A stretch of 59,256 bases of DNA. It comes from Chrysophaeum taylorii (taxonomy: Eukaryota > Sar > Pelagophyceae > Pelagomonadales > Pelagomonadaceae). A program made the position numbers and the translations under genes. The first letter of the stretch is position 1. Each line of letters opens with the position of its first letter. Shown here one piece after another: positions 1 to 50,150 of the stretch. The stretch covers positions 1 to 59,256 of the forward strand of contig JAQMWT010000472.1 of NCBI GenBank assembly GCA_029834535.1, written 5' to 3'. Below the pieces are notes generated by a model that had not been told where the DNA came from, searched no databases, and saw only the letters and a program-made list of their open reading frames with translations.

Positions 1-290
1 AATAAGCGACATCATCGTTCGGACCCAAATCGGAATAGAAATGAGCAACACGATCATTCTGGTAATCGTAAGGCTCGTAAACTTCAGCAACATAAATCTT
101 CTTGCGCCAATCAGAGCGCTTCCGGTCAGGAATCCGGAAAACAACAAACTTACCGTGCTGATAATCATCACGGAAGGTTTCTTCGGGTTTGCGGATGGTT
201 TGATCAACGATCGGAGGTACCATCACAGGCGTGATCTGACTAACATGAACACGTCGTTCTTCGGGCGGAGAGTCGAGAGACTCAATCTAT
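1..290 (-). pseudogene. Frameshifted C-terminal tail of element A pol
   Basis: After the IN core the reading frame of pol is lost near position 290. The homologous sequence continues on the minus strand in another frame to the window edge. Around 2-116 it reads a module with W-R-K-K-IYVAEVYE, a YD..ND segment and DLGP.DD. The same module follows the integrase in elements C, D and E. The function is unknown; it sits where many Ty3/gypsy elements carry a chromodomain. The frameshift is inferred from alignment by eye to the family-2 copies. Confidence 0.7.
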
Positions 291-3200
291 AGGTGACCGG
301 GGAAAGGCGTTCCTTGATAATAAACGGTCCTCGCCATTCCGGTCGAAGTTTGTTCTGAAGGAAAGGAATGTAGAGCAAAACGTGCGATCCTTCCTTGTAT
401 TCAACATCAACATGATCGGCATTGTAGGCCAATCGTTGTTTCTTCAAAGCTTTATCACGAGCCTCGCGGACGATCTTCGTATAATACTTCAATCGTTCAC
501 GAGTTTCGGCGACTGCATCAGAGCGAGTCTTCGGCAACAATCGCGTATCAAAGTCCATAAGCGTGTAGTCAGTCGGCAGCATCGGCTGACGGTTCAGGCG
601 CAGCATAAAGGGAGAAATCTGCGTGCCTGGAATAAACTTGCGGTTGTAACAAAACGCAATATAATGAGCAAAGTCGGGCCAATCCGTGATGTTCCGGCCC
701 TGAAGGCAAGCACGGAGGAAGGCCTTGATAAATCGGTTTACACGCTCAGCCGGGTTCGACTGGGCATGATAAGGAATCGTAGTTTGGTATCGTGTGTTGA
801 AGAGATGGCAAAACTCGCGCATCAACTTGTTCACGAACTCTTTACCGTTGTCGGTACGAATCATCTGGGGCAAGTAGCCCTTGAGGAGGATGTTAATGAC
901 AAAAGACTCGAGGACAGACTCAGCAGTCTTATCGTTCAAAACATCCAGAATCAAGAAATGCGAGAACGGATCAAAAAATACTATAAGATACGTCTCGGGA
1001 CCAGCGCTGGGCAAAGGTCCAAATAAATCCATGCAAAGAACAGCACCATCACCATCGTAGACGGGCTGCTGCAAGAGTCCAGCTCGTTTCGGCTCAGGCG
1101 TACGAGCTTTCTGGCAAACTAAACATTCAGCAATGAAGACTCCAACTTCGTTCGACATGTGGGGCCACCAAAATCGTTCTTGGATAGCCTGGACGGTACT
1201 GTGACGTCCCATATGACCACCGTTAACCGGAGTGTCATGGTAGAGTCGAATAATGCGCTTGCGCAACGTAGCAGGTGCAACAATCATCGGGTGCAAATCA
1301 GCAGAAATGCGGTAAAGAACGTCTTTAACGACTTCGAATCGTTCGTTCGCTCGGGAACGTCGCGGCGTCTGACCTTGGGCCATTCGGTAGCGAATATCCT
1401 CGCAAGTAGCATCAGATTCTTGCTCACGTGCGATCTCAGCGAGCGTCATATTATCGGGTATCTTATCGATATAATCTTTGTAAGCGGCTGCGTCCTTGAA
1501 GATCTGTGGCTCATCGCGCGCACGGTTCTTCCGACGTTGTCTCGTAGCGTGAGACGTAGCCAATTTCATCGGATCCTTTTCAGGATCTTCTTCCTCGTCT
1601 TCCGGCAGTTCGGTCGTAACAAACGACATTGTGAAGTGGCAGCCGGAGGCGGGAACTCCTCGGTCATCAACAGGTCGGGGAAGCTCTTGGAACACCAAAT
1701 AAGCGTGGTTCAAAGGTTCTCCAAACTCGTCAGTCTCGATGACATGATCTATCGGATTGCGGGAGAGACAGTCAGGGATACTCATTCCCGGTGACTTTCC
1801 CGGCTTGTAACCAAGTTCAGGGTCAAAATTGGCGAGGCGCATCGCCCAACGAGCAAGCTGCCCAGACGAGTGCGTCGCCTTACGTAAAAACGTCAAATTT
1901 CGGGGATCGGTCTCCAAAACAGTCCGGTGCCCTTCGATGTAGGCTCGAAAGTGCTCTAGAGAAAGTATAACTGCCAGCAGCTCTAACCGACGGGGCTCAT
2001 AATTGCGCATCTCCTTCGGCACAGCTCGGCTCCAATATTCAATCACTCGTTCTTCTCGAGTCACTCTTCCGGCATCGTCCTTGACTTCGACAATCTGGAA
2101 GAGATATGCTCCAAGTCCATCCTTGGAAGCATCGGATCGGATCTGAAAAGGCAGATCATAATCGGGGTGGTAGACTCCTCTGGAATCAACCAAAGCTTCA
2201 ATAATCGTATCCCAAGCTTTCTGACACTCGGGCGTCCACTCGAACTTTACACCTTCGAGGCATAATCGTCTCAGCGGTTCCACGATCTTCGAGTAGCCCT
2301 TCACATATCGCCGGCAGTAATTACTCATGCCGATGAAAGAGCGTATCTGGGTCTTCGGGGAAGTATTCGGTAAAGTACCTGGAATCGGCATCTTCTGCAG
2401 TGCTTCCAGCGTCTTCGGATTCGGCTTCAAGCCTTCTGGGGTAGAAATGTGTCCCAGAAATTCTATATCATCCTTGAGAAGGTGGAACTTCGCGGTTCGA
2501 CCGCTGTACCCTCTCTGTGCCAAATGACACATCACTTCGATCAAAACTTGTAAATGTCGATGAAGATCGTCGGATCCCATCATAATATCGTCAACAAACG
2601 CAACCAAGTCTCGATACATCCATTTCGAAAGGTCGCTCGCCATTTGCTTGCAGAAAAGAGCTCCGGCCGTCTTCACACCTAGAGGTAATCGCAAGAAACT
2701 ATGAGCGCCAAGTGGGCTAACCATCGTGACAGCGTCTTGCGCTGCCGGATCCAGACGAAGGTTGTGGTATCCCCATCTAATATCAATGCATGTCCGCCAT
2801 CGTCGCATAGCGAGAAAAGCTAAAGCATCATCTTGTCGAATGTTCGGCCAACTGTCATTGACCAATTGATCGTTGAGCTGACGTAAGTCAACTGCAGCAC
2901 GGAACGCGTTTGACGTTCCAATCTCAGCTCCTTTCTTCGGAAGCATCAACACAGGAAAGCCCCAAGGTGAGTTGGCCGGACGAATGACTCCATCCCGGCA
3001 CCACTCGCTGATCTGCTTGCGGAGACAATCGAGCTTCGCAGGCGTCAATCGGTAGGGCGTCATCTTAATCGGTCGCGGATTCGCGTCTTTGAATCGTAGA
3101 GACACAGGAGGCGAGTCCACAGGTCTCATAATCGGGTCGAAAAAGGCCCAAGAATATTGCACACAGTGACGGAGCATCAGTTTCGCCTCGTCATCTAAGT

Positions 3201-3486
3201 GCGGATTGTCAGGAATTCCCAACTCCTGAACAACCTTATCAACTTCTTCCTTCGTAGGAACTTGAACTTTCATGGCTCTGTTATCCTTGACATGCTCAGG
3301 AGTTTGCGGCAGCGGTGCACCCTCAGCATCGCGCGGCGCATCTTTCCATGGCACATCAAACTTCTTCTCATATTTTAGTCTCACTTCCGGGTGGCTTTTG
3401 TTGATCCTCTCGCCTTTGACACGAACACTCGGCTCGCTCTTAATCTTCGGTTCCCGATCTCGCTCAGGATCTGGCGGAACGTCCAA
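223..3486 (-). CDS. Element A pol: reverse transcriptase, RNase H, integrase
   Basis: About 1087 codons open on the minus strand. No ATG is needed: the frame overlaps the upstream methyltransferase ORF by about 105 nt and lies in its -1 frame, so entry by ribosomal frameshifting is plausible. Residues about 130-340 are the RT, with an FVDD active site near residue 298. RNase H follows, with DAS near 447 and the LETD block. The integrase has an HHCC zinc finger (YHDTP, GGHMGR, CLVCQK at about 740-790) and a DDE triad at MDLFGP (about 817), TDNGKE (about 877) and PAERVNRF (about 912). One RNase H block reads LETDPRNL where B and C have LETDHRNL. The last about 20 residues are out of frame because of the shift near 290. 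Confidence 0.93.
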   Translation of the reverse strand: MDVPPDPERDREPKIKSEPSVRVKGERINKSHPEVRLKYEKKFDVPWKDAPRDAEGAPLPQTPEHVKDNRAMKVQVPTKEEVDKVVQELGIPDNPHLDDEAKLMLRHCVQYSWAFFDPIMRPVDSPPVSLRFKDANPRPIKMTPYRLTPAKLDCLRKQISEWCRDGVIRPANSPWGFPVLMLPKKGAEIGTSNAFRAAVDLRQLNDQLVNDSWPNIRQDDALAFLAMRRWRTCIDIRWGYHNLRLDPAAQDAVTMVSPLGAHSFLRLPLGVKTAGALFCKQMASDLSKWMYRDLVAFVDDIMMGSDDLHRHLQVLIEVMCHLAQRGYSGRTAKFHLLKDDIEFLGHISTPEGLKPNPKTLEALQKMPIPGTLPNTSPKTQIRSFIGMSNYCRRYVKGYSKIVEPLRRLCLEGVKFEWTPECQKAWDTIIEALVDSRGVYHPDYDLPFQIRSDASKDGLGAYLFQIVEVKDDAGRVTREERVIEYWSRAVPKEMRNYEPRRLELLAVILSLEHFRAYIEGHRTVLETDPRNLTFLRKATHSSGQLARWAMRLANFDPELGYKPGKSPGMSIPDCLSRNPIDHVIETDEFGEPLNHAYLVFQELPRPVDDRGVPASGCHFTMSFVTTELPEDEEEDPEKDPMKLATSHATRQRRKNRARDEPQIFKDAAAYKDYIDKIPDNMTLAEIAREQESDATCEDIRYRMAQGQTPRRSRANERFEVVKDVLYRISADLHPMIVAPATLRKRIIRLYHDTPVNGGHMGRHSTVQAIQERFWWPHMSNEVGVFIAECLVCQKARTPEPKRAGLLQQPVYDGDGAVLCMDLFGPLPSAGPETYLIVFFDPFSHFLILDVLNDKTAESVLESFVINILLKGYLPQMIRTDNGKEFVNKLMREFCHLFNTRYQTTIPYHAQSNPAERVNRFIKAFLRACLQGRNITDWPDFAHYIAFCYNRKFIPGTQISPFMLRLNRQPMLPTDYTLMDFDTRLLPKTRSDAVAETRERLKYYTKIVREARDKALKKQRLAYNADHVDVEYKEGSHVLLYIPFLQNKLRPEWRGPFIIKERLSPVTYRLSLSTLRPKNDVFMLVRSRL

Positions 3487-6400
3487 ATTTGGTTGTCGGG
3501 GGCAGCAGAAGAAGCATGAGACGTCCCCGGCTCATCTGTTGCAGGCGGAATCAACGGTACCTCTGGAGGTTTCCATTTGGTGCGATCTTGGAGATCATCA
3601 GTCGATACCCATCTTACGACACGTGTGCGCGTGTTTAACAGCGGAACTTGTACGTGACGAAGGGTGGTTTCATCAATTTGCAAATAATAATCAAACGGTC
3701 GGTCTGCAGGACTCAACGCTGACGGCAAAGCTTCGCCGCTCAGGTGAAAATCCTTGGTCACAGAGTTGTGCAGATCGAGTACTAATAAGGTCATCGTGTC
3801 TGGTGGCACGACGGACGCCAAGTGTTTCAACGAGGTCGTCCTGGAGAAGCCGGCCCAATCAAAATCAAGGGGCATTGTCAGCAACTCCGAAGTCATTTTC
3901 AGATTCAAAGATCTGTAATCGGAACGGTGCGGTCCTACACGAAGCGGGACACGCGTAACGGTATAAGCTGCGTCTGTCGCGGCTCGTGATGATCCTAAAT
4001 TGTTCATCTGAAGTAAATGTCGTTCGTCGGCGTAGCCAAGCGCGGCGGCGAACTCTTGCTGCATATTCTTGCAAGTCTTTGGAACTGCGCGCAAATGGAG
4101 CGGATGGCTGGAAACCAACAATCGCACGCGACAGCTCATCAAACTGGGCGTTATGTCGTAAAAATTGACGACGTACACGTAAGGGTGCAAACGTGCAACG
4201 TAAGAAATAATCGAGGCCTCCTGCTCTATCAACCACATGAAGAAACCAGCCATCTTGCATAATTTCATCGTCCAGTGGGTAGCGGTGACTCCCTTCCCAA
4301 CATCTCTGGAAGTCAAGTTGCACAGAGCGGAGTGTACGCAGGGTGGCGACGCGACACACATCGACGACGACCATTCCGCGTAGGGTAAATAAGATTCGAT
4401 CAACCGTAAGGTTGTAACATAGCGACCACACAGTGTGTGCTGCACCACAGGAATATTCGGAAAGTTCTTGTGGTGGATCTGGTTGGCGGTGTCCGACGCA
4501 TCGAGTGCTAGCACGACTCGAAACGACGTCCCACACATTTCGTTGGCTCGTTGGAGACCTAAAGTACTGCCTCCGGCTCCACTGAACAGCATCACCACCT
4601 TGCGATAAGTGATTGGAAGCCATTGAACCTTTTCGTATCGGCGGCGGATCTCCGTTTCGGTGATCTCGCGGCACTTTCTTTCATCTTCTTCCGACCTTCG
4701 AGCAAAATCGTCGTCGCCTTCGGGTCGTTTGAGGGAGGACTTGTCCGCCATAGCGGTCGTAGCGTCCTTCTGCGCCGTGCTCAGCAACATCGGCGGGGGA
4801 GACGCGTCGCAATGCGTCAAATGACTAGCGACGGAAACGGTGAAAGAAAGGTTCCCCTTGTCGTATCCTTCTTCACATTCTTTCGTAAGTTCGTTGATCG
4901 TAGAGACGTTCAACTCATCTTCATACCTACGATATCGCCAATCGCAAGGACTTCGCCTTGAGTGACGACCGTCGGCACTTCTTCCGCGGCAGTAACCGCA
5001 ACCCGAGCAGCGGACCGGTCGAGCTCTCCGCAAGAAGAACACATTCCTTCGACAACTCCCAGCTGCTCGTTCTCCAAACGTAGCGACGAAAACCTGTCCC
5101 GTTTCCATTGGTTTCGAAAAAATAACCGGTAGATTGTAAGTTCGACCGGGCTCGATTTGGAGCGTGCGCGCAGCGTAAGCCACTACTCTTCGCGCGTCTT
5201 CTCCCGGAGCTGGGGAGAATTTGGTCGTAGCATGTCCCCGCGTAGCCAAGGCTACCGTACGTTCCGGCGGCGGGATGCGGAGATCTTTAATCGTGCTCAA
5301 ACGAGCGTAAACTCGAGTCTTGACCAGGTCGAGACTCTGCCGGAAGGCATCGTGTTGATGATTGTAAATCGGGACGGTTGTCGTGTCTCGATCGTAAATA
5401 GATCGAAAGGTCACGATGGGTGCATCGATTCGTTCATCCTTGAACTTAATCTTCTTGCGCCCGTAGACGACTTGGGTTCGATAAAAACAGATTCGATCGT
5501 GGGGGTAGTCCACGACGGCTCCTAAAACTCGTATATCGCGCCCTCCCAACAGGAACAGATAGTTCGTATCGGCCACAATAGCGACAATGGGGGCGGCGAT
5601 GTTGTCGGCGAGGGCGACCCGAATCGCGATCCAACGAAAGATCGTCGTCGTATTCAACCCTGATCCGTACAGCTTGCGCTTAATCGGAAGTTCGCCTTCA
5701 TCGAAAATCAGCTTTCTGACCATTTCTCGGCAAATATAAGAAACATCCGCCATTCCATCGACACCGATGGTCGTCGAGAATTTCGGTCCGTCACGATTCC
5801 TGTAGATGTGACAGGCCATAAACGTAAGAGTACCCGTATCTAAACAACTGAGGGTAACCAAATCATCTTCGATCGTCTTGCCATCTCGCGGCGTCAACGA
5901 AGTGTGAGCACATCGGGCTCTGACTCGCTCATCTCCGGGGTTGGGCATCGATACCGCGGCTTGAGCTCTCGTATCATCTGTTGTTGGCGTCATCGACGTA
6001 ACGCTCGCGGCAGCCTCTTTATCTGGCGGCTTCCGCTCTTCCTCCAAGACAATCTCGGAGGGAATCAGTGCTGGTAGGGGATCCCGATCTTCGCTATTCT
6101 CGGAAGCAAAGGACCTCTCCCATAACTCATTCATTTCGTCTTTCCAGAACGCATCCGTAGATTCATTCGTCGTTGGTTGATCATCACCATCATCGGCGAT
6201 CGGTTCCGTGTCGGCTGCGGCTTCGAGTCCGTAGCTGAGCGGTTGTTCTGGTGGCTTCTTTAGCAAGAAGTTCCGAGTTCTCGTCCACCAATCCTGCAGG
6301 TTCCACGTCGGCTCGTCTTCGTCCCAATCCAGAACGCTGCTAATCTTCTTCTTACGTCTATCCTTTTCTTCCGGCGGCGTATCCGTGGCTCGATCCGTAG

Positions 6401-8816
6401 TAACCGAAACCGTTTCGGGGGGGTCCGCAGGAAAAGATGGCGTCGTCCCCGACGTCAACTCTATCGTAAGATCGTCGTCTGCTTCACTCGCGATGGTCAT
6501 CGTCTCGTCCGTCGAATGAGCACACGAGCTATCACTGCAGAAATCCATGTCTGGCTCACAGCCAGTTCGGTCGCCAAGGGTCGTCCCTGGAGGGTCCAAA
6601 GATAAGCCGATGGCGTCGAGGGCTTCCTCGTCAAAAACAAACGGTGGGTCGTCCGTGGACGACTCGTCAAGTAACGTTATCGCGGACACTGGTTCACAAG
6701 GTGCAACTTCTTCATCTTCCGAATCTGAATCGCCTTCCCAGTACCGTGGAGCTTCGAGTTCATCGCTCGAATCTTCGAGTTCATCGCTCGACATCTGCTC
6801 ATAAATCTGTGCCAAAGACCGACGATCGGTCAGCACGTCGTGGGGTGGCTCGTCCATCAGCGGGCGAGCAAGATCGTCGAATGCGGCCGCGGCAAGGGCG
6901 TCGGCTGCGTCGTCGGTGCGGGTGTCCGTATGCGGGTACACCATCACTCCTAATGGTAATTGTTGACCGCAAGGGGTCGTAAACGCGAGCGTAGCGCTCA
7001 AAAAACCCAAATTATATTGGTGTCGGCCTCCGTCGTATTCGTCGTCGCGCGATCGGCGTCGTCTGTGCCGGCGCGAACTTCGACTGGGGCTCTTGTTATC
7101 TTTGTCTCTCTCTGGCGTCAGTTCGGCAGGTCCTATTACCTCTGGATCGTCCCTGTAGGCAACTGGTGCTCCCAAGCCTATCCGAACTGTCTCAATCGTC
7201 TCGTCTATCGAAACATCGACACATGCGTCGTCTTCTTGCCAAAACTCCGACCAAACGTAAATTAACTCTCCGTTGGCGAATAAATCCATGCCTCGGGGTC
7301 GGAATCGCACTTCTTTCCGCTCTGGCGGTTTCTTCCTCAGGAAACAGTGAGCTCGTATCCATACCGTCGGTACGCTCATCTTCCTCGTATCCATGCTGAT
7401 CGTCCCATCCAAATTCGATTCCGGGCGGCAGCTATACTCATCCCTCATGGTATGTTCGGGATCTTTCTTTATCACATAGCCATCATCATATGCAGGCTGA
7501 AAATCTTTGAACTCTTCGTTCGTGAGTAATACGCCAGGGCTTTCACAGAGCTCCAAAGGCAGTTCATGCGTTATAAGATTCTTCACCTCTTCCGCTTTCG
7601 TATTCATTTTCTCGGCCGTTTCACTCGGCCTATCATCCACTCCATCGCTTAGAATATCGGCAATCGCCTCGTCACTAAAAATGTCGGCACACGAAACGTC
7701 TGCCATCGTCAAAGGGAATAAAACATCTGCACAAACGTCTGCAAAAACGTCTGTAATCGGTTCGTCGGGGGGCCCTGCAAAAGAAGAAGGCGTCGTCCCC
7801 GACGTCATATCTGTCAAGAAATGGCCACCAAAGGGCACGTGACGTTCGATGGGCGTGTAAACAGGTGCGCGCTTATCACTCGAGATAATCCTCTGCGACG
7901 CATCGTCGATCGATCGTGGAGACGAAGTGTCATCCACTTGAATGTCCGGAGGTAGACTCATAGCATCGAGCGTAGCAGCGGCGGGTCCATTCCTTTGGGC
8001 GTCATCGGCTGCACGGGGCTCGTAAATCGGATTCACACATAACTCCGGCGCGTCGTCAAAACCAAGGGTTGTGTTAGCTGACGACAAATCATATCGTGCC
8101 ACCAACGGTGACACCGGGTCAGAAGCGGTTGTTGGCTTCGGCCCGTAGTTTAACGACGTTTCGGTCAGATTCTCCGATCCTGTGGGGATTTTGGTTTGGG
8201 TGAGCTCCTTCGACTTGGATTGCTCTTGCTCGTAGTTTAACGACGTTTCTGTCAACTCGGACGACTCGTCGTCGTCGTCGCGCGGCTTCCTAACTTTCGC
8301 TCGCGTTCGCGTGGGCGGCGGTACCTCCGAGGGTCGGAATTCTCCCTCAAGACTGCTCGCTCGCCTCGAGCGACTCGGCGTACGCAATTCATCCCTCTCG
8401 CGGGTCAACCATCGTACTTGCTCGTGTATTTTATCTAATCGAGCGTGTTCGTGCCGCGTTTGCTCTTGCATTATTTTTATCTTCTTCTGGTGTAGCCATT
8501 CACGCCGTATCTCTTTTTCTTCTATCAGCTGGATGAGGATTTCTTGTGCGCGCTTATTTTCTCGGCGTATCTCTCGTAACTGGGCTTTGTAAATCTTTGC
8601 AACGTTCGGTGGTTCATCATCTCGCGCACGTTCTGGATGGGCTGCCGGTTGTCTCGCCGGCGGCGCCCTCGGCGGTTCATCGCCGTTGTAGTTCAGCTCT
8701 TCTTCCTCATCATCATCATCAGTATCATCATCATCGTTCCCCTCGCTCGTCTCATCCTGACGGCTTGGCGGTTCGTCATATCGCATCTGCTCGTCGGCAG
8801 CATCATCGTCTTCCAT
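3381..8816 (-). CDS. Element A polyprotein: coiled coil, aspartic protease, C5-cytosine DNA methyltransferase
   Basis: An 1811-codon frame from ATG at 8816. Residues about 75-140 form a charged coiled coil, as at the N-terminus of Gag in element B. No capsid or zinc knuckle is visible. A long acidic linker carries two copies of a T-S-G-T-T-P-S segment (about 337 and 789) and of a K-K-P-P-E segment (about 490 and 849). An Arg/Ser-rich patch lies near 575-600. The retropepsin-like domain is at about 1000-1110, with DGMAD near 1020 and LLGGRD near 1089. The methyltransferase is at about 1400-1690: motif I LFSGAGG near 1411, motif IV SPPC with the catalytic Cys near 1493, motif VI variant IEQE near 1531, motif VIII SCRVRLL near 1560, an AYTVTR segment, and motif X SVVPPD near 1667. 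Residues about 1247-1298 are scrambled by two compensating deletions. The end overlaps pol. Confidence 0.92.
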   Translation of the reverse strand: MEDDDAADEQMRYDEPPSRQDETSEGNDDDDTDDDDEEEELNYNGDEPPRAPPARQPAAHPERARDDEPPNVAKIYKAQLREIRRENKRAQEILIQLIEEKEIRREWLHQKKIKIMQEQTRHEHARLDKIHEQVRWLTRERDELRTPSRSRRASSLEGEFRPSEVPPPTRTRAKVRKPRDDDDESSELTETSLNYEQEQSKSKELTQTKIPTGSENLTETSLNYGPKPTTASDPVSPLVARYDLSSANTTLGFDDAPELCVNPIYEPRAADDAQRNGPAAATLDAMSLPPDIQVDDTSSPRSIDDASQRIISSDKRAPVYTPIERHVPFGGHFLTDMTSGTTPSSFAGPPDEPITDVFADVCADVLFPLTMADVSCADIFSDEAIADILSDGVDDRPSETAEKMNTKAEEVKNLITHELPLELCESPGVLLTNEEFKDFQPAYDDGYVIKKDPEHTMRDEYSCRPESNLDGTISMDTRKMSVPTVWIRAHCFLRKKPPERKEVRFRPRGMDLFANGELIYVWSEFWQEDDACVDVSIDETIETVRIGLGAPVAYRDDPEVIGPAELTPERDKDNKSPSRSSRRHRRRRSRDDEYDGGRHQYNLGFLSATLAFTTPCGQQLPLGVMVYPHTDTRTDDAADALAAAAFDDLARPLMDEPPHDVLTDRRSLAQIYEQMSSDELEDSSDELEAPRYWEGDSDSEDEEVAPCEPVSAITLLDESSTDDPPFVFDEEALDAIGLSLDPPGTTLGDRTGCEPDMDFCSDSSCAHSTDETMTIASEADDDLTIELTSGTTPSFPADPPETVSVTTDRATDTPPEEKDRRKKKISSVLDWDEDEPTWNLQDWWTRTRNFLLKKPPEQPLSYGLEAAADTEPIADDGDDQPTTNESTDAFWKDEMNELWERSFASENSEDRDPLPALIPSEIVLEEERKPPDKEAAASVTSMTPTTDDTRAQAAVSMPNPGDERVRARCAHTSLTPRDGKTIEDDLVTLSCLDTGTLTFMACHIYRNRDGPKFSTTIGVDGMADVSYICREMVRKLIFDEGELPIKRKLYGSGLNTTTIFRWIAIRVALADNIAAPIVAIVADTNYLFLLGGRDIRVLGAVVDYPHDRICFYRTQVVYGRKKIKFKDERIDAPIVTFRSIYDRDTTTVPIYNHQHDAFRQSLDLVKTRVYARLSTIKDLRIPPPERTVALATRGHATTKFSPAPGEDARRVVAYAARTLQIEPGRTYNLPVIFSKPMETGQVFVATFGERAAGSCRRNVFFLRRARPVRCSGCGYCRGRSADGRHSRRSPCDWRYRRYEDELNVSTINELTKECEEGYDKGNLSFTVSVASHLTHCDASPPPMLLSTAQKDATTAMADKSSLKRPEGDDDFARRSEEDERKCREITETEIRRRYEKVQWLPITYRKVVMLFSGAGGSTLGLQRANEMCGTSFRVVLALDASDTANQIHHKNFPNIPVVQHTLCGRYVTTLRLIESYLPYAEWSSSMCVASPPCVHSALCNLTSRDVGKGVTATHWTMKLCKMAGFFMWLIEQEASIISYVARLHPYVYVVNFYDITPSLMSCRVRLLVSSHPLHLRAVPKTCKNMQQEFAAALGYADERHLLQMNNLGSSRAATDAAYTVTRVPLRVGPHRSDYRSLNLKMTSELLTMPLDFDWAGFSRTTSLKHLASVVPPDTMTLLVLDLHNSVTKDFHLSGEALPSALSPADRPFDYYLQIDETTLRHVQVPLLNTRTRVVRWVSTDDLQDRTKWKPPEVPLIPPATDEPGTSHASSAAPDNQIWTFRQILSEIGNRRLRASRVFVSKARGSTKATRK

Positions 8817-9620: not shown

Positions 9621-9953
9621 TGTGGCAGTAACGCCCATCCCCCCACTTGCCTGCCTGCCACCTGACTTACCCTGGTTGTTGCCCTGGTACTGACGTTGCA
9701 GTTATGTGGATGGGTGTCATCTTGACACCCTCACCTGCGCTTCCACTGAACCCTATGTACCAGGCATTTGTATTGCTTTCTTGCTGTCTTCTTGCTATTA
9801 CCCTCTTTTGATAGTCCGATTTTATGATGGCGTGAGTATTTACGCTGAGATCGGGCGTGTGGTGGTTTCACCCGCGGTTCGGGTTGGGAAAAAAGGTTGT
9901 TGAGGACTCTGGCCAGGCCAAGAGGGGCGGGTGTCTGAGAGAAAACCACTAGA
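9621..9953 (+). repeat. 5' LTR of element C (family 2)
   Basis: 333 bp from TGTGGCAGTAACGCC to CCACTAGA. It matches 16405-16737, 49817-50149, 59201-59256 and, inverted, 46572-46905. It holds an 8-bp perfect dyad, GGGTGTCA/TGACACCC, at 9712-9730. No promoter could be placed with confidence. Confidence 0.92.
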
Positions 9954-9954
9954 G

Positions 9955-9972
9955 TGGTCTCAGAAACGGGAA
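9955..9972 (+). other. Primer-binding site of element C with LTR-spanning dyad
   Basis: TGGTCTCAGAAACGGGAA starts one base after the LTR. Together with the LTR end it forms a dyad: TCTGAG (9934-9939) pairs with CTCAGA (9959-9964), and ACCACT (9945-9950) pairs with AGTGGT (9953-9958). This recalls the stem around the primer site of retroviruses. The primer tRNA is not assigned. Confidence 0.6.
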
Positions 9973-10422
9973 TCGATAGTCCAACTCCCGGACTATCGAT
10001 CTACTGTTATTCGGCGGCGAGTCGGTTCGTAACGGTCGAGCGAGTGCGAAGCCGACGCATTTGTGGGTGAAGATCCAGGGGATCACGGGTACCGCTGAAG
10101 GGTTCATTTTACGTGATTCGGATCGAACGGGGAGCGGAGTCACTACGACTCAACCAGGCAAAGCATCGTAAGACCTAACCAGGCAAAAAAGAGTAAGACC
10201 TAACCTAGCTCGCGCGAGGCAGACCACCTCCCTGACGGCGAGCGACAGCACCGGGAAGGCCGTCCATAGCCTTCACGCGCAAGGCAAATCCTACCGTGAG
10301 TCGAGCGCACCGGTAGAGCGCGCAGTCAGACGGCAGCCGGAAATTTGTCGTCTGACGGAAAAGAGCAAACAGGCGAGTTGTGAGCGTTCGGATTAATCCT
10401 ATTATCCGGGCAAAGCGCGGTC
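9973..10422 (+). other. Element C 5' leader
   Basis: About 450 bp between the primer site and the ATG of gag at 10423. It aligns with 50169-50610 of element D over most of its length, apart from a divergent stretch near 10155-10200. No gene is seen in it. Confidence 0.65.
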
Positions 10423-11511
10423 ATGGCAGAAAGGCCAATGACAGAACGACCGCAGTGGTCTCGGGACGCACAGGAGCGTCTGCAACGATTCAGTGCAGCG
10501 ACTCCATTTTCGTCCATTGGAAGAACACCGTTCAGCACGCCCTTTCAACGGCCGGAAGCCGAGGAAAGCGGCATAAGAAGAGAGGCAAGATCATCTGATA
10601 GCCTCGACAGCCCCCCAAGCGTGGTCATCCTTCCGGATCCACGCGCCGGCGAAGGGGGAGCTACGGTTGCGCCAGACGCAACCTCAAGACCGGGTGAGCC
10701 GACGTTCCCGTACGCACGACCCTACGAACGTGCGATGAATGCTACGGAGTCATCTCGAGCGGACCCCGGATTTTCTACGGCGATGCGTGGACCAGAGGAG
10801 AGTGCACCTCCTAGGCCACCATCCGCGAATACGAGAGCTGCGGCAGATCGTCGATTGGATACCGACCCGGAGATTTTGCAGACCATCAACGAACGGTTCG
10901 AGATGCACCAGTCGCAGATCGAGCAAGTCATCCGTAAAATTGAGCTCGCCCGCCGCGACGCGCAGCAACAACGCTCAGAAGTGGAGCGGCAGTGGATCGA
11001 CAACGATCGACTTCGACGAATGGTGGAGGAATCCACGCGGGCGCATGCTCGAGAGGCACGGCCAGCCTCTCCGATGCCACGCGTGTTACGCCCGAAGAGG
11101 ATGACGCTGTATCGGCACTGACCGATGATCAGCCACCGCGACGTCGACCGGAGCCTACCCCGCAGCATCATACGGACCCCGGTTCAGCGCGCCCTCGTAA
11201 CGAAGAAGAGCTACTTCAGATCAAGAAGGGAGCTGCTGGTATGACTCGTATCACGTTTTCGCCTCTCACCGGGCAAATCACCAAGACCCAGGATGAGGTT
11301 AACGCGTGGTTTATGCAGTTGCTGCGTAAGGTGGAAGGCGAGATCATGCCGCATGAAGGATGTGTCAACATGCAGCTAGGAGCCACTGAGGACGTTTGTC
11401 ATGCGACTCTCATGGCTGCTGTTGACGAGAATGAAGTCGAGGAGGATGTCTTGAGTGACAGACCTCCTCCTGAGCCACCTCCAGATGAAGAAGTGAAAAA
11501 AAACACCAGAA
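10423..11511 (+). pseudogene. Element C gag remnant, capsid and protease deleted
   Basis: The frame starts MAERPMTERPQW at 10423 and runs through a proline/serine-rich N-terminus to a coiled coil (about 10860-11050). A one-base deletion near 11073 moves the frame. The text then reaches the block MTRITFSPLTGQITK and joins at 11331-11341 directly to sequence that in element D lies after the protease. Element D shows that capsid, zinc knuckle and protease are missing. The junction shares GAAGGC with both breakpoints in D (near 51521-51528 and 54131-54141). Confidence 0.85.
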
Positions 11512-12440
11512 ATGGAGATGGAGGCGACTGCTAAGGAGCTGCTATCTAAGCACGCCTCCTTGGTTTGGATACCCATCACCTACACCTTTGTCGTCGTCTA
11601 TTTTGCTGGCGCTGGAGGATCAACGTTGGGTATCCGGCGATGCAATGAACTATATGGCACTTCATTTCGCATTGTCTTGGCTTTGGATGCTTGTCCACAA
11701 GCCCGAGCCACCTTTGTGCTCAATTTTCAAAGACTCCCTATGTTTTGCACGAGTTGGGGAAATCTCATCGTCGTACATACGACTTGGTGTTGTCGTATTT
11801 ACATTCAGATTTTTGGAAGCATTCTTATTTTCACGCAAGTCCGCCGTGTATCTATGGCTCGACTGCCAATTTGCACTACAGGGACGCACGCAAGGGCGCT
11901 ACTATTACTTCTTGGATCCTGCGTCATTTCCGCAACGCACCTTATGTAATTGGACGATGGACGCTCGAGCAGGAACCATCAGTGATCCCTTAGTGCATCA
12001 CACATTTTATGTGCTGCGCATTGTCGATTTTTATAGTATTACACCACAATTGCTGTGCTCGCGCACGCGCCTACTTGCTTGCAATGTTCGCTTGGAACTG
12101 CCGTTATTATCGCGTGTACCACCGAATTTACGGGACCGTTTGGGCCAGCGTTGGGATTTACGGGTGGTCACCCGCTCATTATAGTGAACAGTTTCTCATC
12201 TACGCGCCCGGCTATCGGCCCTGCCTTCACGGTGACGCGCAACAAATTACAAATGGGACCTCACTTCTCGAACACCCGTCCACTCACGTTGCAGATGCAC
12301 CAGGAAATTATGACCGTTCCTGCTACGTGGCAATGGGGTGAGAAAGTCTCAGAGACAGCAGCTATGAAGATGCTTGGCAGTATGGTGCCACCCGCGACTA
12401 TGACGCGGATCGCGCTAGCAGTGCACAATTCGTTTGATCC
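11512..12440 (+). pseudogene. Element C C5-cytosine methyltransferase, frameshifted
   Basis: Motif I reads YFAGAGGSTLG near 11600, motif IV ASPPC near 11850, the motif VI variant TLEQEPS near 11970 and motif VIII LLCSRTRLL near 12055. The VTR segment (PAFTVTR) and motif X (SMVPPAT) lie in the frame that continues into RT. A one-base deletion near 11740 and further frame changes near 11990 and 12180 break the domain. Comparison with D and A shows these are lesions, not introns. The domain is contiguous with RT, so MTase and pol belong to one polyprotein in this family. Confidence 0.86.
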
Positions 12441-14469
12441 TTCACTTCGAAATTTGGGTAAGTTGCGGAATATTGCGACGACTACGATAGCACAACCCGA
12501 TCACCATATTCTACGGTTTTCACCCTTTGCTGTCGAGTCGCGCATTCCAACGCTCGACCCTGCCACTCGAAGTGTGTCATGGATTTCGCCCGATGAACTC
12601 TACTCTCCTGCGAGTCCTGCACCATCAGCTGCTGCCCCCGCCACCCCGCCACCACCTTTGGTTACATCGCCTGGGACGGCTCAATCTTTTGCAGGGGGCA
12701 CCGTCGCCACTGCTGTTATGCAGAGCAACCAAGCCAACAACCAGCCCTCCGCAACTGCGGAAGAAGAAGGCACCGCGAAGGAGCGACCTGCGTATTTCAA
12801 TAAGTACGACGTTCCGTGGGCGGACGCGCCTCACGACGAACATGGTCAACCTTTACCGGTGATGCCTCCTCATTTAGCGGATCAGGAGAGCATGCAGGTC
12901 ATCCCTCCGACCGTCGCGCAGGTCGAAGAGGTGATGGCTGAATTGGGTATTACAGAGCATCCTGCTTTAGATGATGACGAGAAGCTGATGATGAAGCATC
13001 TAATCTCGTATTCGTGGGCATTTTTCGATGATGTGATGAGACCTGTTGATTCACCTGAAGTGACGCTCCGGTTCAAAGAAGAGAACCCGACTCCCGTCAA
13101 ACTCTCGCCATATCGGTTGTCGAAAGAAAAGATTGAATGCTTGCGGATGCAGATTGAAGAATGGACCCGAGACGGAGTTATTCGTCCCGCGAATTCTCCA
13201 TGGGGTTTCCCTATTTTGATGTTGCCTAAGAAAGGTGCTGAGCCTGGCACTTCCAATGCTTACAGGGCAGCTGTCGACCTGCGGCGCCTCAATGCATTGC
13301 TCAAGGATGATAGCTGGCCGAGTGTGAGCATGGCGGACGCGTTGATGTTTCTCATCGACAAGTTCTGTCGTTCCAGCTTGGATATTCGTTGGGGCTATCA
13401 CAATTTACGATTGTCGCTAGATGCACAAGATGTGGTAACCTTCACTAGTCCTCTGGGAGCGTACAGCTACATGCGTCTACCTTTGGGAGTCAAACCAGCC
13501 GGAAGTTTGTTTTGTAAGCAGTTAAACACTGACTTGTCGAAATGGCTATATCGTGATCTCGTGGCATATATCGACGATATTCTCGCCGGTCACGCGGATA
13601 CAAAGAATCACTTGCAGTGCCTTGTGCAAGTTATTCCCCATCTCGCCTTGAAAGGGTACAGCGCCAAGATCAAGAAGATCCACTTCATGCAAGAAGTCAT
13701 TGAGTTTTTGGGTCATTTGTCCACCCCGAACGGACTGCTTCCATCACCGAGGTCTTTAGAAGCCATCAGACACATGCCAATTCCCGGCACTTTGTCGGAT
13801 GCTGACCCTAAGAAGCAAGTGCGGTCTTTCCTTGGAATGGGGAGTTTTTGCCGGCGTTATGTAAGGAATTTTGCGAAGGTTGCAGAGCCATTAAGACAAC
13901 TGACGTTGCCGGACGTAAAATTCGAGTGGACGAAAGAGTGTCAGGAAGCTTGGGATGCCATCATCGAGGCTATTGTCACTTCGAAGGGTGTCTACCATCC
14001 TGACTACTCGTTGCCTTTCTACATTCGAACTGATGCTTCCGCGCATGGGTTGGGTGCTTACCTATTTCAAAAAGTACCAGTCGTTGACGACGATGGAAGA
14101 GAAAGAATAGAAGAGAGAGTTATTGAGTACTGGAGTCGAACCGTGCCTAAATCGATGGGGAAGTATGATCCTCGGCGCTTGGAACTCCTCGCAGTACTCT
14201 CCGCTCTTGGGAAGTTCCGATTTTATATCGAAGGACATCAGACGAAATTAGAGACGGATCATCGTAATTTGACGTTTCTTCGGGATTCGAACCATACGTC
14301 TGGACAGTTAGCGCGATGGGCTATGCGGCTTGCTGCGTTCGACCGGGAGCTCGGATACAAGCCTGGAAATTCCCCTGGCATGCGCATCCCGGATTGTCTG
14401 TCGCGCAACCCTATCGACAAGTTGATCGAGAGAGACGAAGACGGGAACCGATCAATGAAGTTTATTTGA
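12441..14469 (+). pseudogene. Element C reverse transcriptase and RNase H
   Basis: The frame is open from about 12055, so it carries the C-terminal third of the methyltransferase and then RT and RNase H without a break. A conserved linker reads SVSWISPDEL, followed by YDVPWADAP. RT blocks include SPWGFPILMLPKKGAE, LDIRWGYHNL and YIDDILAG (near 13569). RNase H has TDASAHGLGAY and RRLELLAV. The frame ends at 14469 after a one-base loss near 14450, where D keeps GEPINEV. Up to that point the RT/RNase H looks intact. Confidence 0.92.
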
Positions 14470-16369
14470 TATTCCAAGAAATCCCCACCGATGTACCTGA
14501 TACAGCCTGTTTCACCTTCTCTTCGGTGACGATGCCTATACCGACGGACAGCGGACCCACCGCAGCTATGGCAGCAGTTAGTACGCGAGAGAACGTACGA
14601 ACGCCTCAATTCTCGTACGAGTCTGAGCCAGCTGACTCCGTCGAACGTCTCCCTTTTGCGGATCAAGCTGAGGATGAGATCACTCTCGATGAGATAGCGA
14701 AAGAACAAGCTGAAGATGACACATGCAAGCGAATCAGACGAAATCTCGACTCCGAACCGAAAGATCAAGACGAGAAGTCATCCGTACCGTATGAAGTTGA
14801 TAGCAACGTGTTGTATAAGGTCGATAATTCGGATTCTCACCGTCTTATTGTGGTCCCTCAGTCGATGCGAAAGCGTGTAATCGCCATGCATCACCGAGTT
14901 TGTTCGGGGGCCATGTAGGACGAGACTCCACAGCGAATCAAATCTTAGAACGGCATTGGTGGCCAAACGTCTCATCGTCAGTTAATGAGTTCATCAATGC
15001 CTGCATTATTTGCCAGAAGATTCGATCCACCATGCCTAAGCGTCATGGCTTGCTCTGTCAACCGAATCGCGTCGGAGATTGCTATGTCCTAGGTATGGAT
15101 CTGGTTGGACCTCTGCGAGGCGCTGACCTGTTCACGTACATACTCGCGATGTACGATGCAGCGTCGCATTTCTTGAAATTGGCTCTGATCAACACCAAGC
15201 ATGATTGTTCAATTTTGAACGCGTTTGTGGACAAGATTTTACTTGAGGGATGTCTCCCACGGTGCATAGTCACGGATAATGGAAATGAGTTCGCGAACAG
15301 GTTATTTCGCACGTTTGTTCGTCAATTCAACGTACGTTATCGTACTACCCTTCCGTATCACCCTCAGAGTAACCATGCTGAACGTGTCAACCGATTTATC
15401 AAAGCCTTCTTGAGAGCTGCGATCGATGAACAGCGTCAGCCAGATTGGTCGAATTTCCTCCCATATGTTGCATTCATGTACAATAGGATGTACATTCCGG
15501 GAACGAAGATTTCACCTTTCATGATGCGTACTGGCAAGCAACCCCTGTTACCACCCGATTACAATCTTTTGAGTGAACAGCCGGATCCAACGCAATCGCG
15601 TCAGCACATTTTGATGGACTTTAAGAACATGTTTGAATTTTATAGTCGTCTCGTTACACGAGCTCACCAAAAAGCACAGGAGATCCAGAAACTCAACTAT
15701 GATGCCCACCAAATTGACATCCAGTTTCCCCCGGGTGATTATGTTCTGCGTTTCGTGCCTAAGACGCGCCACAAGCTACGGCCCATTTGGCGCGGGCCTT
15801 ATATAGTTACCAGAAAGATCTCTCCCGTCGTTTACGAAACTCAAGACGTCAACGACGATGATGCTGAATCGGTTGTAGTATCTGTACAGCAGATTGTGCC
15901 TTTGAAAGTGCCAACCATCGACACTTCTTCAGCCCCTCTGCATTTACCTTCAGACCGCGACCGTTTCAAACATGGCAAGTTCGTGATTTTAAGGGTTAAA
16001 GGACGATCCAACGCTTGGAAGAAGCGTATATACGTTGCCGAAGTCTACGAAGAATATGACCACGACAATGATACCGTTGCGCTTCACTACTATACCGATT
16101 TGGGACCGCGCGATGATCCTCGTGTTTTTGATCATACTAAGCCTCTGGCTGAGCGACGCTTAAGACCAGAATACAAGGACCCTGACGGAGGTAGCTTCAC
16201 ACGCCTACGACCAAATATGGATGGCTGTGAACCCTGTGTGACTGATTTTCGCCCGGACGAAATCGACGTCCTCGTCAGTAACTTCGGCCTCCACAGCTAC
16301 AAAGTTCCTGCCGATGTAGCTGACCGAGCTTATCGTACCATTCGTGAGCGTGACCTTCGTCACCCTTGA
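14470..16369 (+). pseudogene. Element C integrase and C-terminal module, frameshifted
   Basis: A spacer (about 14480-14880) leads into the integrase. A one-base deletion near 14900 falls inside the conserved HHRGLFGGHVGRDS, which reads on as FGGHVGRDSTANQ. The HHCC finger continues at ACIICQK. DDE residues lie in MDLVGPL, TDNGNEF and HAERVNRF. After the core comes a GPY-like block (IWRGPYIVT) and a conserved tail with KKRIYVAEVYEEYD. It ends at a TGA at 16367-16369, just before a hairpin and the polypurine tract. Confidence 0.9.
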
Positions 16370-16390
16370 AGTCGAGGACGACTTCATCTC

Positions 16391-16404
16391 AAGTAGGGGG
16401 CTCC
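16391..16404 (+). other. Polypurine tract of element C
   Basis: AAGTAGGGGGCTCC immediately before the 3' LTR. The same layout occurs in element D (59187-59200). Element B, read on its minus strand, has AGGGGAGTCC before its LTR. Confidence 0.6.
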
Positions 16405-16737
16405 TGTGGCAGTAACGCCCATCCCCCCACTTGCCTGCCTGCCACCTGACTTACCCTGATTGTTGCCCTGGTACTGACCTTGCAATTATGGGGGTGGGTG
16501 TCATCTTGACACCCTCACCTGCGCTTCCACTGAGTCCAATGTACCAGGCATTTGCATTGCTTTCTTGCTGTCTTCTTGCTATTACCCTCACTTGATTGTC
16601 CGATTTTATGATGGCGTGAGTATTTACGCGGAGATCGGGCGTGTGGTGGTTTCACCCGCGGTTCGGGTTGGGGAAAAGGGATGTTGAGGGCTCTGGCCCG
16701 GCCAAGAGGTGCGGGTGTGTGAGAGAAAACCACTACA
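16405..16737 (+). repeat. 3' LTR of element C
   Basis: 333 bp, starting TGTGGCAGTAACGCC and ending ACCACTACA. Its length equals that of the 5' copy. The dyad is kept at 16497-16515. Confidence 0.92.
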
Positions 16738-31931: not shown

Positions 31932-32646
31932 GCGGGCGAAGGTGTACGACGGGTGCGAACCGGTCGACGACAACGACGACGGCGCCGAAGAAGATGGCAT
32001 CGATGAGGTCGGCACAGAGCACTCAGAAGACGCTCGGTAAGCTGAAAGGCGTCGCATCGCCGCTCTAGAGCGCTTTCGGAGCTGCGATTGAAGTTCATTT
32101 CCGCTGTTCGTGTGCCGTGGGCGTTGAGCGCCGCTTGTCGCGCCCGTACCGCAGCTGCACGCTCGAGCCGCCGTTCCGTGTCGCTGTTCGCGCCGCTCCA
32201 GTCCTCGATCCGTAGCAGATGACCCGTCGCGCCCGGCGCTGCGCCGCTCCTGCGATACCTGCGCGGGCGTTGCTCGCCGCCCCTCGCGCCACAGGCGCAG
32301 CTCGCGCCCCCGTACCGCAGGCGCAGCTCGCCCCCCGCGCCGGAGGCGGCACTCGCGCCGGGCGTCGTTCGCGTGCTCAAAGGTGGCTGTCGCTCGCGTG
32401 CTTCGCGCGCGGTTGTTGTTGGCGACACCGCGATCCGCTCCTACTGGCACGACGAGACGCTCGACGCCCGCGGCGTAACGGTGCAAATCGTCCTCTTCGA
32501 CACGATGATCGCGTCGGGCTTCACCGAGGATACCTCGCGCGCTTCGGTCACGCCGGCCAGCAGATGCAGCTCCCGTGCGCACGATCTGCAACTCGCGCTC
32601 GAGCAGTGGGAGTGGCTGTGGCTGAGCACGACGCGCAGCGCCTCGA
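31932..32646. other. GC-rich target region of element B, coding status unclear
   Basis: Both strands are open for long stretches, as expected in very GC-rich DNA. On the plus strand a frame covering 32373-32651 continues in phase into 41272-41643 if element B and one target copy are removed. The minus strand is also open across the same join. No domain is recognised on either strand. Confidence 0.3.
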
Positions 32647-32651
32647 CCGCG
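32647..32651. repeat. Target site duplication of element B, left
   Basis: CCGCG, matching 41267-41271 on the other side of the element. Confidence 0.8.
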
Positions 32652-32973
32652 TGTGGCGGCACAGAAAAACCTTCCCGACCCCCGGGTGACAAAGGGGGTA
32701 CTCACCGACTCGTCCTAGACCTCACTTAACGAGGAAAACACGGACTCGGGGTCGGGTATGCTCGCCACACACCTTGCTCACGCTCACCAAGCCTCTCAAC
32801 AAGATGGAGAGATGGTATATGATAGCAAGGAAAATACAAGAATACAGCAAGAATGCTTCTCACAAAAGAGAGGTATGATGTCACTAAGAAGATCGGGAAA
32901 GGTGTCCCGTTGAACGGGTATCAAGCCTGGAGAGAGGGGGGGTAAGCCTTAGCGGTCAGGAGTTGCCGCCACA
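32652..32973 (-). repeat. 3' LTR of element B
   Basis: 322 bp, plus-strand ends TGTGGCGGCA and TGCCGCCACA, a perfect 10-bp inverted repeat. It is 25 bp shorter than the 5' LTR because of a shorter A run, no CCTCAAAG repeat and a missing segment near 32865. Confidence 0.92.
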
Positions 32974-32989
32974 GGACTCCCCTGGTGAG

Positions 32990-33430
32990 AACACGAGCTG
33001 CCCTCAGCGAGTCCGGCGAGAAGCACGAGCCTTGGCTGAATGAGTATCTCGATAACGAATCTTCTTGTAGGCACGTTCAACGACAGGTTCAGGAACGCGC
33101 CCACCACATTAGACATATGAGGCCACCAACAACGTTCAAGTATCGACTGAACTGTACTTTGACGACCCATATGACCACCATTGAGAGGTGTGTCATGGTA
33201 CAATCGGATGATGCGCGTCCGTGAAGTTCGGGGTGCGACTATCATCGGGTGCAAGTCGGGTGCGGCACGGTAGAGTCCTTTCGATAGCGAGTGTACCGAC
33301 GATGGCGATGCGATAACGAATGTCCTCGCAAGTAGCATCAGTGATCTGCTCTTTGGCTATCGGGAATCTTGTCGATGTACTCTTGGTAATCATCGGCATC
33401 ACGGAAAATACTAGGCTGGGTCTGCGTTGC
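32990..33430 (-). pseudogene. Element B integrase remnant
   Basis: Only the region up to the HHCC finger survives: IIRLYHDTPLNGGHMGRQS and WWPHMSN are clear. From about 33090 the homology with element A stops and the polypurine tract follows within 120 bp, so the DDE core and C-terminal module are absent. A frame change near 33300 and lost sequence before it also break the link to RNase H. Confidence 0.85.
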
Positions 33431-35297: not shown

Positions 35298-36480
35298 TTT
35301 TGATTGTCGGGGGGGGGGGCAGCAGAAAAAGCATGAGCCGTCCCCGGCGCATCAGTTGGAAGCGGAAGCATAGGAACTTCTGGCGTTTCCCATTTAGTGG
35401 GATCCTGGAGATCATCCTTGGATACCCACTTAACGACACGAGTACGCGTATTTAACAGCGGAATCTTTACGTGGCGAAAGGCGGTGTCGGAGATTCGTAA
35501 ATACTGCTCAAAGGATCGATCTGTCGGGCTCAACGCGGTCGGCAGGACTTCACCACTTTGGCGGAAACCTCTGGTCACGGAGTTGTGCAGATCGACTGCT
35601 AAAATCGCAAGAGTATCTGGAGGGACGACAGATGCTAAATGTTTGAACGAATCTGTCTTAGACAAGCTAGCCCAATCATGATCCACCGGCATCGTGAGCA
35701 ACTCGGCCGTCATCTTGAGAGTCAAAGGCTGAGTGTCCGAGCGATGCGGTCCCAAACGAAGATGAACCCGCGTAACGGTGTAAGCCGTATCTGTTGCTTC
35801 TCGGGACGAGCCAAGATTATTCAGCTGGAGAAGGTGGCGTTCATGAGCATAACCTAAAGCTGCAGCAAATTTTGTTGCATGTTCACACATGTCTTCGGAG
35901 CCTCTTGCAAGTGCAGTGGGTGACTGGAAACCAACAATCGCACGCGAGAGCTCATCAGAGTAGGTGTGATATCATGAAAATTGACGACGTACACGTAAGG
36001 GTGTAAGCGCGCTATATACGAAATAATGGACGCCTCCTGTTCAATCAGCCACATCATGAAGCCAGCCATCTTGCACAACTTCATCGTCCAGTTAGTGGCC
36101 GTAACACCCTTGCCAACATCTCTGGATGTCAAGTTGCAGAGTGCGGAATGAACGCAGGGCGGAGACGCTATACACATCGACGATGACCATTCCGCTTCAG
36201 GCAAATAAGCCTTGATCAACCGGAGGGTCGAGTCATATCGTCCACAGAGCGTGTGCTGGACCACAGGTATCTTCGGAAAATTCTTCTGATGAACCTTGTT
36301 GGCAGCTGTTGAAGAGTCAAGAGCAAGGACGACTCGAAACGACGTCCCGCACAACTCGTTCGCTCGTTGCAGTCCTAAAGTACTTCCTCCGGCGCCGCTG
36401 AAGAGCATCACAACCTTGCGATACGTGATCGGCACCCAGTGGACCTTTTCAAACCTTCGGCGAATCTCGCCTTCTGTAAC
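35252..36480 (-). pseudogene. Element B C5-cytosine methyltransferase, one frameshift
   Basis: Motif I LFSGAGGSTLG, motif IV ASPPCVHSALC, motif VI variant LIEQEAS and motif VIII SSRVRLLVS lie in one frame (to about 35870). A one-base deletion near 35870, where A has MQQEFAAALG, moves the rest (AYTVTR, ELLTMP, SVVPPD motif X) into the next frame. The domain is preceded by an in-frame TAA at 36481-36483, where A has Glu. The end overlaps the RT frame at a run of nine to ten C residues on the coding strand. Confidence 0.88.
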
Positions 36481-40899: not shown

Positions 40900-40917
40900 A
40901 TCTCGTGTACTCCACCA
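40900..40917 (-). other. Primer-binding site of element B
   Basis: On the minus strand TGGTGGAGTACACGAGAT, two bases after the LTR, as in element A. Confidence 0.6.
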
Positions 40918-40919
40918 CG

Positions 40920-46905: not shown

Positions 46906-46955
46906 GGAGCCCCCCACTTGAGATGAAGTCGTCCTCGACTTCAAGGGTGACGAAG

Positions 46956-50149: not shown

Positions 50150-50150
50150 G

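Follow-up and report, generated by a model that had tools for sequence, protein, structure and literature searches.

Four long terminal repeat (LTR) retrotransposons, designated A, B, C and D, were found in a stretch of 59,256 nt (the window; G000:C472:1-59256) of a 70.8-Mb genome in 697 contigs (G000), each carrying a cytosine-C5 methyltransferase (C5-MTase) type domain ahead of the reverse transcriptase (RT). They belong to two Ty3/Gypsy families, A/C and B/D. An earlier note on this DNA had claimed that two families of LTR retrotransposons encode a C5-MTase inside the polyprotein, and this was borne out by the match to the Pfam family PF00145 (DNA_methylase), the order of the motifs, colinearity with DNMT2 and selection on the domain. 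The phenomenon as such is already known; the particular features here, as far as the sequences can be read, are a Gypsy-borne MTase that is not recognisably Dnmt3 and a Ty1/Copia family with another C5-MTase.

Identity of the methyltransferase domain

A profile search of the element A region (window 3762-4700), proposed as a check together with the original claim, returned PF00145 (cut-off 22 bits) at E 4.4e-6 and 26.8 bits, and the whole A open reading frame (ORF) matched at E 5.2e-5. All six members of the family alignment matched PF00145 (best E 9.3e-10) and no other Pfam family at E <= 0.1; a B-type polyprotein matched at E 2.9e-7 and 30.7 bits in two stretches, the best of which corresponds to profile positions 260-321, the C-terminal part with motifs IX-X. 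The window B and D pieces alone stayed under the cut-off (E 0.0014 and 0.007; 18.6 and 16.3 bits). When the profile of the Gypsy domain was run against the PDB at E <= 10, three of three matches were C5-MTases (two cytosine-specific MTases and one tRNA C38 MTase, no chain named DNMT3), none being significant alone (E 0.26, 0.45 and 2); when only the D piece had been compared with the PDB, no C5-MTase came up. The profile aligned colinearly with the host DNMT2 from motif I to motif VIII (hhalign E 7.5e-4), and no significant alignment was obtained with the host DNMT5. Because the Pfam E-values are joined by PDB profile matches that are all C5-MTases, the resemblance is more than chance, and the Gypsy domains are almost certainly element-borne C5-MTases. 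One result points the other way: among the matches listed by the genome-wide PF00145 search (best 123 of 474 candidates), which are the stronger ones, there was no A- or B-type copy. Chance or misread motifs were ruled out by the Pfam result for all six members together with selection, and a different enzyme by the lack of any other Pfam family at the threshold given above. Relatives of the domain were found neither among 4066 and 7998 candidates from a set of 5.8 billion proteins nor in viral_contigs.

Motifs I, IV, a Glu-containing VI, VIII and X, as listed in the earlier note, were recovered in this order in the translation of A, on the minus strand; the segments are those which we take to be the respective motifs.

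4557..4586, minus strand: motif I, FSGAGGSTLG (SAM-binding loop; from the translation)
4338..4352, minus strand: motif IV, ASPPC (catalytic Cys; from the translation)
4218..4226, minus strand: motif VI, EQE (Glu kept; from the alignment)
4122..4130, minus strand: motif VIII, R-x-R within SCRVR (from the alignment)
3801..3809, minus strand: motif X, VPP (from the alignment)

Motif I (FSGAGG or FAG[AS]GG) and motif IV (SPPC) were near-invariant in 60 copies, which were chosen by MTase similarity and include window A and D. The catalytic Cys was kept in 30/30 A and 30/30 B copies, the Glu of motif VI in 59/60 and both Arg of motif VIII in 60/60, and VPP was invariant in 6/6 alignment members. A target-recognition region that is short by eye suggests that the putative enzyme has little sequence specificity.

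Position, integrity and copy number

The domain (METHYLTRANSFERASE) was placed by tblastn at four window positions, each ahead of RT.

3762..4634, minus strand: MTase of element A, residues 1395-1685, unbroken (tblastn, plus the PF00145 stretch 3762-4700)
11533..12432, plus strand: MTase of element B, broken into four frame pieces (tblastn)
35579..36516, minus strand: MTase of element C, broken into two frame pieces, with a stop before motif I (tblastn)
54334..55223, plus strand: MTase of element D, two frame pieces with a stop inside the first (tblastn)

Of the statement that a full core lies in A to D, the presence of the domain in all four elements held, and its completeness had to be restricted to A, the only one of the four window copies in which it is unbroken; the C pieces are 83% and 76% like A. 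The placement between protease and RT was confirmed for A, C and D, not for window B, in which the protease is lost. For element A the note had given the feature 3381..8816: this ORF exists and carries the MTase, while RT sits outside it in the overlapping frame 223-3486. MTase-RT spacing was evaluated by script with 80 of 121 MTase rows and 57 of 110 RT rows entered, which gave 54 pairs, 22 of them in frame and 12 in one open frame. The commonest spacing was 1341 nt, in frame (14 pairs); that of window A is 1337 nt, shifted. Frameshifts may reflect decay or assembly error.

In the own-genome search at least 121 A-type matches were obtained (best 121 of 1054 candidates; 96/121 without a stop) and at least 154 B-type matches (150 of 724 candidates scored, some copies appearing as two rows), i.e. 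at least 275 match rows for both types and >300 matches with the Copia type described below. Of the first eight A-type RT matches lacking an MTase row, seven proved to be preceded, on their own strand, by MTase DNA (broken or truncated in several), and one was not; the domain is therefore part of the A family.

Identity between A and B was 38% for protease, 43% for MTase, 56% for integrase, 62% for RT, 75% for RNase H and 20% for the MTase-RT linker. The note had described one arrangement shared by otherwise differing elements; order and place are indeed the same, with the correction that the two families are related, as these identities indicate. Because the domain lies at the same place in both, one capture of the MTase in the common ancestor of A and B, before their split, would most simply account for it.

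Selection on the domain

For the window pair A-C, which was not chosen by MTase, the ratio of nonsynonymous to synonymous substitution rates (dN/dS) was 0.053 (0.044-0.068) in the MTase, with dS near 2 and thus saturated, 0.090 in the protease, 0.032 in RT and 0.035 in RNase H; the flanking linkers gave 0.36 and 0.33. Between subfamilies, with partners chosen for divergence and an open frame, the MTase gave 0.054 (0.034-0.085) for A1-A2 and 0.058 (0.033-0.086) for B1-B2, and five RT-chosen copies compared with A gave 0.12-0.23. The corresponding polymorphism ratio (pN/pS) over the 30 best matches was 0.18 (MTase), 0.28 (RT) and 0.52 (upstream) for A, and 0.22 (MTase), 0.57 (linker), 0.50 (RT) and 0.69 (upstream) for B; these values are biased, as the copies were picked by MTase similarity, and the argument for selection is built on the subfamily and window pairs. 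Judged from those pairs, the Gypsy MTase domain is under purifying selection. L081 and L085 were left out of the dN/dS analysis as they lack the full domain, and the comparison of A1 with L082 (dN/dS 0.72) was set aside due to an inverted piece in L082.

A Copia family with another C5-methyltransferase

A third C5-MTase was found in a Ty1/Copia family with 118 matches in the genome. Genome-wide, 57 PF00145 matches were listed (123 of 474 candidates scored), namely two host genes and 55 Copia-type ORFs, of which 47 overlap rows of the Copia search and the other eight were checked by sequence. The locus L069 (G000:C314:151000-157500) carries DNA_methylase at E 4.6e-7 (residues 355-492) and RVT_2 at E 1.7e-12 (residues 1686-1768); further Copia-type loci are L003-L008 and L087-L094. 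By eye, a protease-like stretch precedes the MTase of L069 and an integrase-like region (34 residues from the last D to E) lies between MTase and RVT_2, which is the Ty1/Copia order.

With the Copia profile, 12/12 PDB matches at E <= 10 were C5-MTases (best E 0.032). The pattern is opposite to that of the Gypsy type, with a degenerate motif I but motifs IV (PCQHLS) and VI (ENV) in canonical form. The Copia and Gypsy profiles did not align with each other (E 0.47), nor was the Copia profile significant against the host DNMT2 or DNMT5 (E 0.13 and 0.064); in the set of 5.8 billion proteins one relative was found, a protein carrying PF00145 (E 7e-4). From these comparisons, with shallow profiles, we infer a capture independent of the Gypsy one. 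The Copia MTase gave dN/dS of 0.12-0.17 (five pairs sharing one reference copy), the upstream stretch 0.17, 0.16 and one saturated value, and the downstream stretch 0.23-1.06; in constraint the MTase resembles the stretch before it.

Host methylation genes

The first of the two host genes, L001, was identified as DNMT2 (PDB 1g55, E 3.9e-39). The second, L002/L086, matched PDB 7r76 at E 3e-143 (named Rad8 there, which we take to be DNMT5) and SNF2 at E 9e-14, and is read as DNMT5, a maintenance-type methyltransferase. The C-terminal helicase composition of DNMT5 is described in the available part of PMC3145265, which does not mention a C5-MTase in a retroelement. One SRA match (G000:C594:64137-64520) and five MBD matches account for 5-methylcytosine (5mC) reader domains. 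Ordinary C5-MTases beyond DNMT5 and DNMT2 were not found, and further host enzymes may have been missed because the search ignores introns and scores the best candidates only. A DNMT1-specific domain gave no match in a search that was uninformative, its control having matched nowhere either, and a scan of viral_contigs with the host DNMT5 returned nothing. The host is a photosynthetic alga, probably of the red-lineage type, considering 80 light-harvesting complex (LHC) matches, one of which lies beside DNMT2 and has an apparent red-lineage look.

Proposed function and alternatives

As functions of the MTase, the earlier note had put forward the marking of cDNA copies or host DNA, an effect on silencing and the protection of cDNA, all of which we treat here as candidate roles. 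In the mechanism proposed, the MTase domain would be made with Pol and packaged in the virus-like particle, where it would methylate the freshly made cDNA at its cytosines, either during integration or earlier; the host DNMT5 could then keep the mark, SRA and MBD proteins could read it, and the new copy would enter the genome already resembling resident, silenced DNA. Taken as a whole (one capture, a selected domain, cDNA methylation), this account is given a slight preference as the best explanation; for cDNA methylation as the selected function in particular, the chances appear even. In its favour stand the Pfam matches, the alignment with the host DNMT2, the dN/dS values of the subfamily and A-C pairs, the MTase DNA next to seven of the eight RT matches, the host DNMT5 with SRA and MBD readers, the second, unalignable C5-MTase in Copia and the CpG activity of two Symbiodinium DIRS enzymes in yeast (PMC5890265).

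Several results weigh against it. In A to D the observed/expected (o/e) ratio of CpG was 1.07-1.34, i.e. not depleted (1.01 in the Copia stretch, 1.26 and 1.46 in the host loci L001 and L002). Singleton C>T changes at CpG were not raised over those at other C in A (0.0044 vs 0.0042, p 0.83) and only 1.4-fold in B (0.0083 vs 0.0057, p 0.012), and this lack of a strong deamination signal weakens the case for a lasting CpG methylation of the copies. The young pair B-D gave dN/dS of 0.22 and 0.27 in the MTase, 0.29 in the linker and 0.095 in RT, with wide intervals and few differences, and does not by itself demonstrate selection. Two AlphaFold jobs reached a pLDDT (predicted local distance difference test) of 36.6 (Gypsy) and 37.1, and Foldseek on the Gypsy model (pLDDT 36.6) returned weak, mixed Rossmann matches, the top ones not C5-MTases (DNMT2 at rank 8, DRM at rank 9, none at E <= 0.001); with a pLDDT of about 37 and such fold matches, the predicted structure was set aside as evidence. 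In most C5-MTases motif VI is ENV and motif VIII QxRxR; here motif VI is EQE and the first QxRxR residue is changed. In yeast, no methylation was seen with SymbioLINE or with the Gypsy MTase of K. nitens, an outcome called inconclusive there (PMC5890265).

A catalytically dead domain, kept as a DNA- or RNA-binding or structural part of Pol, would fit the replacement of ENV by EQE and the overall divergence, also evident from the NCBIfam dcm model (18.7 and 19.9 bits, E 0.0011 and 0.00046, cut-off 100.65); since catalytic Cys (60/60), motif VI Glu (59/60) and motif VIII Arg (60/60) are kept, albeit in MTase-chosen copies, this is considered improbable.

Somewhat better placed, though still unlikely, is a DNMT2-like action on RNA (the tRNA primer or genomic RNA of the element), by which the domain would help priming, packaging or RNA stability. 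It is favoured by the alignment of the Gypsy domain with the host DNMT2 (E 7.5e-4) and not with DNMT5, by the tRNA C38 methyltransferase as one of the three PDB profile matches and by the missing CpG deamination footprint in A; the other two PDB matches are, however, cytosine-specific MTases, and the CFT motif, a DNMT2 hallmark in the target region that is visible in the host DNMT2, was not seen by eye in the Gypsy domain. RNA methylation was also suggested by de Mendoza et al. for SymbioLINE (PMC5890265).

The high copy number (>300 matches including Copia) and the presence of host 5mC reader domains would likewise suit an MTase acting in trans on host chromatin, marking or silencing the host genome or curbing competing elements or viruses, with an indirect benefit. 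Selection on an element acts mainly via a cis benefit, however, there is no sign of nuclear action in these data, and the two host loci (o/e 1.26 and 1.46) show no CpG depletion, so that this ranks as the least probable of the alternatives.

Returning to cDNA methylation, a more far-reaching and speculative extension, to which we give little credence, would be that de novo cytosine methylation in this alga stems mainly from retrotransposons and DNMT5 copies the mark, i.e. a methylome authored by parasites. It is raised because only DNMT5 and DNMT2 were found in the host, and Gypsy and Copia each carry an unrelated, selected C5-MTase at the corresponding place of the polyprotein. Cytosine methylation is normally a weapon of the host against retroelements, and elements of this kind could write their own silencing marks. 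With DNMT5, DNMT2 and SRA/MBD readers in a 71-Mb genome, the question of whether an element methylase seeds its own silencing would become testable.

Comparison with known systems

Similar acquisitions elsewhere, to which the earlier note had referred, are documented: C5-MTases occur in Gypsy elements of Klebsormidium nitens and in DIRS and LINE elements of Symbiodinium (PMC5890265), those of the Gypsy and DIRS elements having been described as Dnmt3 (de Mendoza 2018, PMC5890265). There, element-borne MTases were under purifying selection (Ka/Ks < 0.2 for KnitGypsy-Dnmt3), two of the MTases from Symbiodinium DIRS elements proved able to methylate CpG in yeast, and Symbiodinium Copia elements were without C5-MTase (PMC5890265). 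In the available part of PMC6338049, antiviral roles are proposed, C5-MTases are assigned to Gypsy and DIRS, and retrotransposons of these clades with adenine or cytosine methylases are given for stramenopiles and red and green algae among others, the two kinds not being separated, so that a stramenopile case may already be implied in print. The portion of PMC9998398 at hand lists DNMT5 for haptophytes, diatoms and pelagophytes and gives DNMT3 as missing in most stramenopiles other than diatoms. In the literature covered, with sources available in part and preprints and most subscription papers outside its scope, no further report of LTR elements with a C5-MTase was found for any other algal lineage, and no Copia element with a C5-MTase was described in detail.

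KnitGypsy-Dnmt3 likewise belongs to Ty3/Gypsy, has its C5-MTase within Pol and under purifying selection, and resides in a host with 5mC machinery. It differs in its DIRS-like repeat structure (here ordinary direct LTRs, B and C), in its Dnmt3 enzyme (here an MTase for which the PDB profile search, a weak test, gave no sign of kinship to Dnmt3), in having fewer copies than are present in Symbiodinium (here 275 match rows) and in its host, Klebsormidium (here an alga with many LHC genes, probably of the red-lineage type). SymbioDIRS-Dnmt3 and SymbioLINE-Dnmt share the hundreds of element-borne C5-MTases per genome and purifying selection, whereas their carriers are DIRS and LINE instead of LTR/Gypsy and Copia; SymbioLINE shows CpG depletion and SymbioDIRS none, and none was seen here. 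DIRS elements with a Dam-type N6-adenine methyltransferase, as far as covered by the available parts of PMC5890265 and PMC6338049, also have a DNA methyltransferase in a retroelement polyprotein, of another enzyme family and in another element class. DNMT2 (TRDMT1) shares the C5-MTase core and matches the profile better than does DNMT5, the other host enzyme compared, whereas the Gypsy domain has no CFT motif (by eye), lies within a polyprotein and aligns only from motif I to VIII.

The Gypsy MTase is probably an acquisition different from those of Klebsormidium and Symbiodinium. The putative Copia capture sets the present case apart; MTase class and host lineage probably differ as well. That selected C5-MTases occur in two LTR superfamilies, as enzymes which cannot be aligned with each other, and apparently in one more lineage of algae suggests a repeated, general advantage, and that element-borne C5-MTases are more than a curiosity of Symbiodinium or Klebsormidium.

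Architecture of the elements and other features of the window

223-8816, minus strand: element A (ORF 3381-8816 plus pol frame 223-3486)
3381..8816, minus strand: element A ORF, 1811 aa, with gag-like region, protease-like stretch, MTase and linker
5745-5759, minus strand: protease-like word DGMAD of element A (by eye)
223..3486, minus strand: element A pol with RT, RNase H, H2C2 and integrase core (Pfam), in a frame that differs from the MTase frame
9621..16735, plus strand: element B, LTRs 9621-9951 and 16405-16735, 94% identical
32642..41266, minus strand: element C, LTRs 32642-32973 and 40910-41266, 89% identical
49817..59256, plus strand: element D, 5' LTR 49817-50148, 3' LTR cut by the window end
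46573..48906, minus strand: fragment E of the B family (integrase end and LTR), without MTase

In A, the Pfam domains RVT_1, RNase H, H2C2 and rve follow the Gypsy order; LTRs of A were not found inside the window. The LTRs of B and C are direct, start with TGTGGC and end with CA. Element C has a 5-bp target duplication (CGCGG) and lacks the integrase; for B no clean target duplication was found, and about 2.6 kb, including the protease, are absent relative to D. On the basis of Pol order, direct TG..CA LTRs (B, C) and the short duplication (C), A to D are classified as Ty3/Gypsy LTR retrotransposons. The protease was identified by eye, not by Pfam, with 38% identity between A and a B-type copy; DGMAD was present only in A, C (37582-37596, minus strand) and D (53281-53295, plus strand). 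The usual active-site pattern of retroelement proteases is D[ST]GA, which is replaced by DGMAD in both Gypsy families.

Between elements C and E, a SIN3-like gene was located (43203-45260, minus strand; Sin3_corepress E 3e-24 and two PAH stretches), with a CpG o/e lower than its surroundings; it is either a host gene or a captured fragment. A non-LTR element lies at 27063-30414 (minus strand; RVT_1 E 3e-25, Exo_endo_phos E 3e-4, under its cut-off) and a Helitron at 18916-26011 (plus strand; Helitron_like_N E 1e-8, PIF1 helicase E 7e-13), adjoined at 17475-18915 by roughly 57-nt repeats together with larger repeated blocks.

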